Virus record (IMG/VR): IMGVR_UViG_3300034073_000559
Span: 1-35,141 of that record
Strand: one strand, 5' to 3'
From: a virus
Length of the DNA stretch: 35,141 nucleotides
Made by a program: the position numbers and the translations under genes. Shown piece after piece: positions 30,579 through 32,583 of the stretch (its first letter is position 1; each line of letters starts with the position of its first letter). The notes below the pieces were generated by a model that did not search any database, was not told the origin of the DNA, and saw nothing but the letters and a program-made list of their open reading frames with translations.

Positions 30579-31007
30579 ATGAAACGTCTTATCGCTGTTC
30601 TATTTGCCGTATCCGCTTTGACTGCCAGCCCTGCCCGGGCTGCTGATGCGCCTGCGTGGGTGGTCAAGAAATACAACGAGGGTTCACGGTGCAAGAAGTG
30701 GGAACCGCTCTTCAAGAAACACGGTCTGCCCGTGGTGTTGTTCTCGTACATTTCGTTTCGTGAGTCGCGTTGCCGCCCGGGTGCGGTGAACGCTCGCTGG
30801 CGTGATGGTCGCATTGTCTGGACTCTGAACCGCAACGGGACTTACGACAGCGGCATTTTGCAGATCAACAGCAGTTGGCGAACCGTGACCCGCAACGTCT
30901 GTGGCGGGGGGCTAGATCGCCTGTTCGACCCGGTGTGCAACGTCAAGGTTGCGGCATTCTTGTACCATGATTCAGGCGCAGGCCATTGGGGATTCAAGGG
31001 GTACTAA
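30579..31007 (+). CDS. Secreted lysozyme-like transglycosylase
   Basis: 142 residues. A signal peptide (MKRLIAVLFAVSALTASPAR then A-A) is followed by a lysozyme-like fold: SYISFRESRC with the catalytic-type glutamate E62, YDSGILQINSSW (89-100), a motif of SLT/lysozyme-like enzymes, and several cysteines (C38, C65 and others) suited to disulfides outside the cell. It would cut the glycan strands of peptidoglycan from the outside. ATG 30579 is chosen for its GAAGGAAG site. It lies in the early/middle region, far from the M15 lysin cassette. Stop overlaps the methyltransferase start (TAATG). Confidence 0.85.
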   Translation: MKRLIAVLFAVSALTASPARAADAPAWVVKKYNEGSRCKKWEPLFKKHGLPVVLFSYISFRESRCRPGAVNARWRDGRIVWTLNRNGTYDSGILQINSSWRTVTRNVCGGGLDRLFDPVCNVKVAAFLYHDSGAGHWGFKGY

Positions 31008-31855
31008 TGACAACTGAAGGGGAACGACCTACATTCGGCAGTCTGTTCGCAGGTGTCGGCGGCTTTGATCTAGGCATGGAAGCAGCAGGCTGGCGATGTG
31101 GATTTCAAGTTGAATGGGACAAGAACTGTCAACAGACGCTTGCTTACCATTGGCCTGATGTACCGCGATGGGGCGACGTATGCGAAGTAAACGGTGCAGA
31201 CCTACCGCCCGTGGACTGCATCACGTTCGGTTCACCATGTCAGGACTTGTCTGTTGCCGGCAAACGTGCAGGTTTGTCCGGCGGTCGATCATCCATGTTC
31301 TACGAAGCCATGAGAATTATTAGGGAGATGCGAAATGCAACTGGAAATGTTTACCCCCGATACATCATCTGGGAAAACGTCGTGGGAGCCCTGTCTAGCC
31401 GAAATGGTGACGACTTTGAGGCGGTCTTGCGAGAAATGGCAGACGCAGGGGCGACTTTCCTTGAATGGGCCGTGCTTGACGCGCAGTTCTTCGGAGTCCC
31501 CCAAAGGCGTAGAAGAGTGTTCGTCATCGCTGGCTTTGATTCTGCAAAAGCCAACGGAAGTGGACAAGAAATACTCTCTGTCGGTGAAGGCCGCGCAAGG
31601 CATTCTTCGACGGGCGACGAATCGTGGGAAGAATCTTCCGAAGAAACTGATGACGGCTTTGGAACAGATTGCGAGCAGTTAGACCTGTTCGGTGAATCAA
31701 GCCACGCAACCTATTCACCCGGTTTCGGCACTCTTCGTGCGTCTAGCGGAACTGTGGGGGGGGGGCAGCGAGACATTGTTGGTTCGCTCAACACGAGCGA
31801 TGCGAAATGGGTGAATAATCAGTATGTCGCAGAAGGGAAACTCATTGTCCAATGA
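31007..31855 (+). CDS. C5 cytosine methyltransferase, N-terminal part (split)
   Basis: 282 residues ending early. Motif I FAGVGGFDLG (14-23) binds AdoMet; motif IV FGSPCQDLS carries the catalytic C78; motif VI is WENV (122-125); motif VIII is QRRRR (166-170). The protein breaks off (…EGKLIVQ-stop) in the variable region, before motifs IX and X, which lie in another frame at 31948-32583. The bases 31756-31765 are ten G. The gene would methylate cytosine in phage DNA, perhaps against restriction. Translation of a functional enzyme needs two frame changes, so the gene is broken, recoded, phase-variable or mis-assembled. Confidence 0.85.
   Translation: MTTEGERPTFGSLFAGVGGFDLGMEAAGWRCGFQVEWDKNCQQTLAYHWPDVPRWGDVCEVNGADLPPVDCITFGSPCQDLSVAGKRAGLSGGRSSMFYEAMRIIREMRNATGNVYPRYIIWENVVGALSSRNGDDFEAVLREMADAGATFLEWAVLDAQFFGVPQRRRRVFVIAGFDSAKANGSGQEILSVGEGRARHSSTGDESWEESSEETDDGFGTDCEQLDLFGESSHATYSPGFGTLRASSGTVGGGQRDIVGSLNTSDAKWVNNQYVAEGKLIVQ
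31335..31682 (+). CDS. Nested gene inside the methyltransferase (other frame)
   Basis: 115 residues, read +1 relative to the methyltransferase. It begins MQLEMFTPDTSSGKTSWEPC and ends with KAAQGILRRATNRGKNLPKK then LMTALEQIA. The pattern Y-x-L-S-x-K-A-x-x-G-I-L-R-R-A-x-x-R-G-K-x-L-P is one I know from small phage proteins linked to methyltransferase genes, including stand-alone copies, so it is not a chance frame. AGGGAG at 31322-31327 lies 7 bases before ATG 31335. The same bases encode motifs VI and VIII and part of the variable region in the methyltransferase frame. Role unknown. Confidence 0.7.
   Translation: MQLEMFTPDTSSGKTSWEPCLAEMVTTLRRSCEKWQTQGRLSLNGPCLTRSSSESPKGVEECSSSLALILQKPTEVDKKYSLSVKAAQGILRRATNRGKNLPKKLMTALEQIASS
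31756..31765 (+). repeat. Poly-G tract 1 (G10)
   Basis: Ten consecutive G bases inside the methyltransferase variable region. The zero frame stays coherent on both sides (TVGGGQRDIVGSLN). Confidence 0.9.
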
Positions 31856-31931
31856 TCCAATCGTATTCGGGCATACGCAGGGTCTTGACGTTCAAGCCTC
31901 TGATGTAGCCAGCCCGACCCTGCGAGCAAAC

Positions 31932-31941
31932 GGGGGGGGGG
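31932..31941 (+). repeat. Poly-G tract 2 (G10)
   Basis: Ten consecutive G bases between the two methyltransferase parts. With nine G the frame reading SPTLRANGGG would continue into LAVAFQPG and the C-terminal part; with ten it runs into a stop. Confidence 0.9.
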
Positions 31942-31947
31942 CTTGCC

Positions 31948-32583
31948 GTGGCATTTCAACCCGGTCTAATGGTTCGACAAGGTGCAGACATGGCAGGTGA
32001 AATCTCACCAACCTTGCGAGCCGAAGCACACGCAGGGGACAACGCACCGCACGTTTTGATTATTGACGGAAGGCGCACAGACGATGTGCGCGTGAATGAA
32101 GGGGTGGTTCATACTTTGGAAGCAAGAATGGGTACTGGTGGTAACAATGTTCCGATGGTTGCAGAAACCACTTCCGATGTGGTCGGCTCGTTGCAGGAAC
32201 GAAACTATAAAGGGCCTAATCATGAGAACGCCCGTGACGGTCAATTGGTCATCGTCAAAGATGAAGCATTCGGTTTGCAAGGAACAATGATCAACAGGCA
32301 AGACCACAACGGGCCTAGCGGTCAGGGGGTGTCAAAACCCGGTGAGCCGATGTATACGCTCACATCTACAGACGTTCACGCTGTTGCTACGCCACAGATG
32401 ACTGTTCGACGTTTGACCCCCATTGAATGCGAACGCCTAATGGGTTGGCCTGACGACCACACGCTTCACAGGGCAGACGGCAGAACCAATGCGGATTCCA
32501 CCCGGTACAAGATGTGTGGCAACGGGGTCGCCAGCCCGGTAGCAGAGTGGATCGGGCGAAACCTGCTGGAAAAGGGCTTTTAG
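31948..32583 (+). CDS. C5 cytosine methyltransferase, C-terminal part (split)
   Basis: 211 residues from GTG 31948 if translated alone. The first 140 are the variable, repeat-like region typical of large phage C5 methyltransferases (GEISPTLRAEAHAGDN, VVHTLEARMGTGGNN, DVVGSLQERNYKG). Motif IX begins at RRLTPIECERLMGWPDDHT and motif X at RYKMCGNGVASPVAEWIGR. Alone it lacks the AdoMet site and catalytic Cys, so it must be joined to the upstream part to be active. In frame it can extend back through the second poly-G tract to the coherent AAC-(GGG)3 reading if one G is removed. Confidence 0.8.
   Translation: MAFQPGLMVRQGADMAGEISPTLRAEAHAGDNAPHVLIIDGRRTDDVRVNEGVVHTLEARMGTGGNNVPMVAETTSDVVGSLQERNYKGPNHENARDGQLVIVKDEAFGLQGTMINRQDHNGPSGQGVSKPGEPMYTLTSTDVHAVATPQMTVRRLTPIECERLMGWPDDHTLHRADGRTNADSTRYKMCGNGVASPVAEWIGRNLLEKGF

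Follow-up and report, generated by a model that had tools for sequence, protein, structure and literature searches.

An out-of-frame gene, very likely genuine and old, nested within the C5-cytosine methyltransferase genes of phages and prophages

M.EcoHK31I is a C5-cytosine methyltransferase made of two polypeptides, the smaller of which carries the motif IX that is absent from the larger (PMC3404938, citing Lee, Kam and Shaw 1995). The gene for its small subunit lies inside the gene for the large one, in another reading frame, and M.EaeI is alike in this respect. M.AquI is a naturally split enzyme: the break follows motif VIII and part of the target region, and a second ORF encodes motifs IX-X (PMC3404938). 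A second protein encoded out of frame within phage methylase genes has also been described in the form of the ShiLan domain, an HNH endonuclease (PMC11855218), which is a mobile homing insertion of disjunct distribution. Here we describe a gene nested in the +1 frame of the C5-cytosine methyltransferase ORF of a virus record of 35,141 bases (the window, that is, the whole stretch of DNA analysed). It resembles the ShiLan domain in being a second protein encoded out of frame within a phage methylase gene, but, unlike that domain, it is not an insertion: it shares its bases with the catalytic motifs themselves, and no examined member of its clade lacks it. On evolutionary evidence, and without expression data, it is very likely a genuine overprinted gene with a coding function, widespread and old. 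No description of it was found in the open-access literature searched, subscription papers and preprints being outside the scope of that search.

The nested gene occupies positions 31335..31682 of the window (115 codons; all window features given here are on the plus strand) and sits entirely within the N-terminal part of the methyltransferase, its stop falling about 55 codons past motif VIII. It covers both motif VI (Glu-Asn-Val, ENV, 31373..31381) and motif VIII (QRRRR, 31502..31516) of the enzyme, whose motif IV (Pro-Cys-Gln) is at 31235..31243. A Shine-Dalgarno-like AGGGAG (31322..31327), which also codes for the R-E of the methyltransferase motif R/K-E-M, stands 7 nt before ATG 31335, and the conserved C-terminal domain of the nested protein is encoded by 31572..31679 (YSLSVKAAQGILRRATNRGKNLPKKLMTALEQIASS). 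A preliminary description of the window had reported this frame with its length, position, ribosome site and two enclosed motifs, together with a K-A-x-x-G-I-L-R-R-A-x-x-R-G-K-x-L-P pattern at the end of the protein; all of this held, the pattern being real and conserved in relatives. Its further statement that some copies of the pattern protein are encoded alone failed, no free-standing nested homologue having been found at any of the 324 loci assembled below or in the phage and plasmid records searched.

The N-terminal part of the window methyltransferase (31007..31855; PF00145, E 1.8e-45) comprises motifs I-VIII and part of the target region; the ORF as listed begins at TTG 30986, its true start probably being ATG 31007. 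The next module of the target region lies in an ORF of a further frame (31824..32000, SNDPIVFGHTQGLDVQASDVASPTLRANGGG), and the C-terminal part, in a third frame (31948..32583; PF00145, E 1.1e-9), contains motif IX from 32407 (RRLTPIECERLMGWPD) and motif X. The window enzyme satisfies PF00145 with motifs IV, VI, VIII and IX, spread over two ORFs in different frames. This division, which concerns the methyltransferase and not the nested gene, recalls M.AquI in its placement, after motif VIII and part of the target region and with motifs IX-X in a second ORF, but differs in involving three reading frames and in coinciding with runs of 10 G, one at 31756..31765 in the target-recognition region 3' of the nested gene and another at 31932..31941 between the second and third methyltransferase frames; the gene may be split, slippery or mis-assembled. 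Runs of 7-11 G recur in the same region, 3' of the nested gene, in other loci (L002, L010, L016, L018, L036, L047, L052 and others), and runs of at least 8 G number 41 in 426 kb of that region, all on the sense strand with no C runs, as against 8 runs of G or C in 1.47 Mb elsewhere in the loci. Near them the frame changes in many of these methyltransferases, the upstream part remaining under selection; phase variation or slippage is a possible cause, as is assembly error. In the window (at 31855) and in L010, L018, L019, L052 and L062, the methyltransferase ORF ends just after a module NQYVxExKLVV and resumes in another frame, which might be a natural split of the M.AquI style.

With the single window protein as query, a first search returned no viral relative, and an alignment-based query was required. 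A tblastn search with the nested protein matched 198 phage records; in each of the first eight examined, the matching frame is +1 relative to a methyltransferase ORF. When sequences were then retrieved with a profile of the nested protein, 324 were assembled, counting the copies from phage records and the window itself; the nested ORF is present in 324/324, and the methyltransferase frame is open across the whole overlap, in the same register, in about 317. Because retrieval by the nested protein favours loci with an open nested frame, it was repeated with the methyltransferase N-terminus alone as query. This fetched 80 loci, 54 of them with a QRRRR-type motif VIII, and every one of the 54 has the nested ORF. 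The sister type described below, likewise fetched by methyltransferase sequence, has a +1 ORF of 106-319 aa in 50/50, codon shuffling having predicted 0.74, so that no loss of the nested ORF was seen in the 104 methyltransferase-fetched loci (54 + 50). When codons were resampled with the methyltransferase protein held fixed, the +1 frame stayed open in only 2.8% of trials for the window and 5.3% on average; among 178 dereplicated loci of the window's type (fetched by the nested frame), all 178 are open, against 9.4 expected. Single changes silent in the methyltransferase, each of which would abolish the nested ORF, number a median of 15 in the window's class and 10 in the window. Twelve chromosomal C5 methyltransferases with a generic motif VIII have +1 ORFs of just 13-55 aa through that motif, and prophage-type enzymes from the same genomes do carry the nested ORF. 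In two further chromosomal enzymes, of a GAWHERKR type, the +1 frame is open over 188 aa and gives no profile match, and two of the antisense frames are often open as well (39-52% at least 100 aa).

That both frames are under purifying selection in the overlap is shown by their sequence evolution. Across 152 independent sequence pairs, each difference was scored for its consequence in each of the two frames. Inside the overlap the nested frame gave a dNN/dNS of 0.54 (95% 0.51-0.57) and a dSN/dSS of 0.32 (0.28-0.37), while the same +1 frame outside it is approximately neutral, both upstream (0.99 and 0.87, respectively) and downstream (1.05 and 1.11). The methyltransferase is constrained throughout (dNS/dSS 0.28 inside, 0.27 and 0.43 outside), and the rate of change silent in it falls from 0.40-0.44 outside the overlap to 0.18 inside. 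Examined by sub-region, the nested-frame signal begins at the nested start (in the short class the stretch immediately before it is unconstrained in the nested frame, with NN/NS at 1.11 and SN/SS at 1.05) and stops at the nested stop, and it peaks between motif VIII and the nested stop, where the nested SN/SS is 0.26 and the methyltransferase NS/SS 0.41. For the window against its own relatives and clade, the nested dSN/dSS is 0.32 inside and 0.80 and 1.25 outside, from pooled pairs that are not independent. The proposal in the preliminary description that the same bases must satisfy both proteins, for which it had suggested looking for dual-frame purifying selection and synonymous-site constraint, is thus borne out, the constraint being confined to the overlap. 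Its suggestion that the nested protein explains an odd segment of phage methyltransferases after motif VIII fits as well, the nested frame being the more constrained of the two there.

Evidence on initiation comes from codon choice around the start. Nested starts lie at a few fixed distances from the ENV codons, clade by clade, and in most short-class loci a +1-frame stop lies close upstream of the start. Among 71 loci with a K/R-E-M-R-x-A-T segment, 23 use one ATG and 46 another ATG 9 nt later. Users of the earlier ATG have GGAG at the K-E codons in 23/23 and never an AGG Arg codon (0/21). Users of the later ATG never have GGAG (0/46), and their Arg codon is AGG in 41/42, so that a ribosome site stands at a suitable spacing before that ATG (Fisher p 8e-19 for GGAG and 8e-16 for AGG, uncorrected for relatedness). 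Where Asn/Asp codons supply the ATG, they are xAT in 22/22 and 24/24, compared with 43% in the rest of the gene. Since the methyltransferase protein requires none of these choices, independent initiation is strongly indicated: the nested start codon moves in step with its ribosome site, by way of codon choices that leave the methyltransferase protein unaltered, and we consider it very likely, though inferred from sequence alone, that ribosomes initiate there. The absence of any translation signal from ATG 31335, which the preliminary description had named as an outcome that would refute it, is not what was found; the signals are present and conserved.

The window's nested product is a protein of 115 aa, 12.7 kDa and pI 9.4 (family median pI 9.2). 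AlphaFold2, run with 103 relatives, predicts residues 1-75 to be disordered and the C-terminus to form a hairpin of two helices (84-97 and 103-114, pLDDT about 90), which corresponds to the KAxxGILRRAxxRGKxLP region. Foldseek gave no PDB hit better than E 2 and its BFVD hits belonged to the same family only, the best predicted-structure hit being gp104 of mycobacteriophage Thibault; neither Pfam nor NCBIfam had a family match, no match to PDB sequences was convincing, and PADLOC returned only a weak match, to a methyltransferase. Part of the resemblance among nested proteins is imposed from outside: codon-shuffled controls that keep the methyltransferase protein score a median of 42 bits (maximum 78) on the nested profile because some of the +1 frame is fixed by methyltransferase motifs IV, VI and VIII. 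For genuine nested proteins the median is 153 bits (minimum 103; window 139). Weak profile matches, like that of PHROG 16143 to the window protein (38.5 bits, E 1.5e-9, without a shuffled control against the PHROG 16143 profile), therefore prove nothing on their own; the proof lies in the selection and start-site data.

The nested frame occurs, unannotated, in the dmt gene of phage P1 (NC_005856, about 66710-67198; L170 2746-3234), and also in P7 and several hundred P1-like plasmids, in mycobacteriophages, in Caulobacter, Roseobacter, Vibrio and streptococcal phages, and in many clostridial prophages. Dmt itself has been seen, with two peptides, in an LC-MS/MS data set of P1 virions (PMC9024508). 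It is listed as a gene in a few records, namely ORF14 of Streptococcus phage MM1 (NP_150146), Thibault gp104 and, possibly, PHROG 16143, where it is named 'DNA methyltransferase' or hypothetical and has no analysis or function attached; the copies annotated alone (Thibault gp104 and MM1 ORF14) sit in or between parts of methyltransferase genes. Several loci are rearranged. In those of Thibault (L173) and Schatzie (L516) an HNH gene is inserted just past motif VIII, breaking both the methyltransferase and the nested frame, and in Thibault the methyltransferase frame stays open through the insertion, as in the ShiLan domain. Another locus (L113 1479-4217) has an intein-like insertion at methyltransferase motif VI (ENV|C...HN|CG) that separates the nested gene from its usual start, and in L109, near 2870-2950, the methyltransferase N-terminus has given way to recombinase/integrase genes up to a point just before motif VI, and both frames persist beyond it. 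In L020/L021, L193, L320 and L321 a stop codon breaks the methyltransferase frame within the overlap, and the nested ORF is intact; the stop in L020 and L021 lies in motif VIII (Gln to TAA) and is synonymous in the nested frame.

A sister (V) class comprises methyltransferases with the motif X GNAVVPQIPE and a longer nested ORF (L404-L483, 106-319 aa). Here not one of the 50 methyltransferase frames contains motif IX, and 43/50 nested frames have LNPxWVEWLMGFPxGWTDL at their end, a tail that matches canonical motif IX in profile comparison (probability 96%, E 1.5e-9). Nested-frame constraint in this class gives an SN/SS of 0.32 from ENV to motif VIII and 0.64 (0.49-0.89) from there to the stop. 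The sister class thus divides its labour as M.EcoHK31I does. The window's class differs: motif IX is encoded in the methyltransferase frame in 211/299 and in the nested protein in 0/299, the latter ending instead in the two-helix GILRRA domain. Being without motif IX, the nested protein of the window's class is not a subunit of the EcoHK31I type. The two cases also differ in that M.EcoHK31I is part of a restriction-modification system, whereas the nested-bearing enzymes are those of phages or prophages. The M.EcoHK31I sequence itself was sought among plasmids without being recognised; of two small enzymes retrieved from E. coli plasmids, the one that was testable lacks the nested ORF (+1 ORF of 15 aa).

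In a tree of methyltransferase N-termini the two nested-bearing types form one clade with support of 100/100, streptococcal enzymes group with another nested-bearing chromosomal enzyme, and enzymes without the nested ORF fall outside the clade. It is on this tree, and not on the HMM resemblance between the GILRRA and motif IX classes, that a shared origin of the two nested classes rests; that resemblance was rejected as evidence of protein homology, methyltransferase motifs alone giving such scores. The simplest reading would be a single old overprinting event in an ancestral phage methyltransferase that gave rise to a partner polypeptide, after which one branch would have shifted motif IX into the nested partner, and the other would have kept a complete methyltransferase and elaborated the GILRRA hairpin.

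What the nested product does is inferred, there being no expression, binding or activity data. In the reading that we favour, ribosomes would start independently at ATG 31335 from the Shine-Dalgarno site within the methyltransferase ORF, one mRNA would give both the methyltransferase and the nested protein, and the latter would be a small basic partner subunit of the enzyme. Its N-terminal tail would be unstructured, with a sequence largely dictated by methyltransferase motifs VI and VIII. The working part would be the C-terminal helical hairpin, which would probably bind the methyltransferase and help it to fold, to act or to choose its target. We put the probability of such a role in the window's class at roughly 0.55, because of the sister class and of a strict two-way linkage, the nested ORF never having been lost in 104 loci and never having been found apart in 324. 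Among the roles that the preliminary description had raised, that of partner is favoured by the sister architecture, and those of inhibitor or specificity factor remain possible. Against the partner reading stand the motif IX that the window-class methyltransferase has of its own, so that the need for a second subunit is not obvious; the intact nested ORF beside broken methyltransferase frames in the few loci listed above, which a pure partner would not lead one to expect if those breaks are neither errors nor recent; and the absence of a fold or family match, together with the part of the nested resemblance that methyltransferase motifs impose.

The most serious rival is that the nested protein acts on the host or in regulation, either countering Type IV restriction of methylated cytosine, to which the methyltransferase would itself expose the phage, or serving as a basic DNA/RNA-binding regulator, the nesting being kept as two traits that are useful together. 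This is possible, and the small, basic character of the product, its strict co-inheritance with C5 methyltransferases and its survival in the few loci with a broken methyltransferase frame all suit it. However, counter-defence genes come and go, while this one is kept in 54/54 and 50/50 across phages of very unlike hosts; it has never been relocated to an independent gene (0/324), its frame carries a methyltransferase motif in the sister class, and PADLOC offers no match save the weak one to a methyltransferase. A brake on the methyltransferase, controlling timing or toxicity, would account for the same linkage data, since lineages would keep an antagonist, too, along with its target, both being products of one mRNA; it seems unlikely, since a pure inhibitor would be expected to be lost in some lineages and none of the 104 methyltransferase-fetched loci has lost the nested ORF.

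The remaining alternatives deny an independently translated protein. Programmed frameshifting could yield a chimera of the methyltransferase N-terminus and the nested C-terminus without independent initiation, and occasional joins between the frames (in L507, on the reverse strand, a +1 ORF of 451 aa) and a BFVD entry (A0A8S5LZA8), a 521-aa methyltransferase that matches the nested model, speak for it. Yet the start codon is conserved and the ribosome site shifts along with it, constraint in the short class begins at the nested start and not upstream, and most short-class loci have the +1-frame stop close before that start, all of which make this account very improbable. Lastly, the open +1 frame might be a mere by-product of base composition or of constraint on the methyltransferase, with no second protein; the motifs do impose part of the nested sequence, as the shuffled controls show, and two antisense frames are often open too. 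This view is all but excluded by the excess of open frames over expectation in the 178 loci and their universal presence in the two methyltransferase-fetched sets, by the codon choices at the start, by the short +1 ORFs of generic C5 methyltransferases, and by a selection test that is aware of codon position and has internal controls, which it could survive only through a non-protein constraint of exactly such periodicity.

Returning to the partner subunit, a bolder reading can be stated as a joint claim, for which the evidence seems to us evenly balanced: that the overprinted gene predates the split of the two branches, that a large clade of phage and prophage C5 methyltransferases, including P1 Dmt, consists of two-protein systems with an out-of-frame second subunit, that in one branch this subunit provides motif IX, and that the window's branch has a new kind of subunit, built on the GILRRA hairpin, which is probably an activity or specificity factor. 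If the partner reading is true, hundreds of phage methyltransferases annotated as single proteins, that of the long-studied P1 included, would be missing a conserved partner, and results from expressing or assaying them may be misleading when the nested product is left out or when the codons are optimised, a step that destroys the second frame. The odd conserved segment after motif VIII may be explained as the shadow of the nested protein. As an example of overprinting in dsDNA phages the nested gene is clear, deep and widely distributed, methyltransferases that lack it provide a natural control, and the old question of why some C5 methyltransferases need two polypeptides would become testable.
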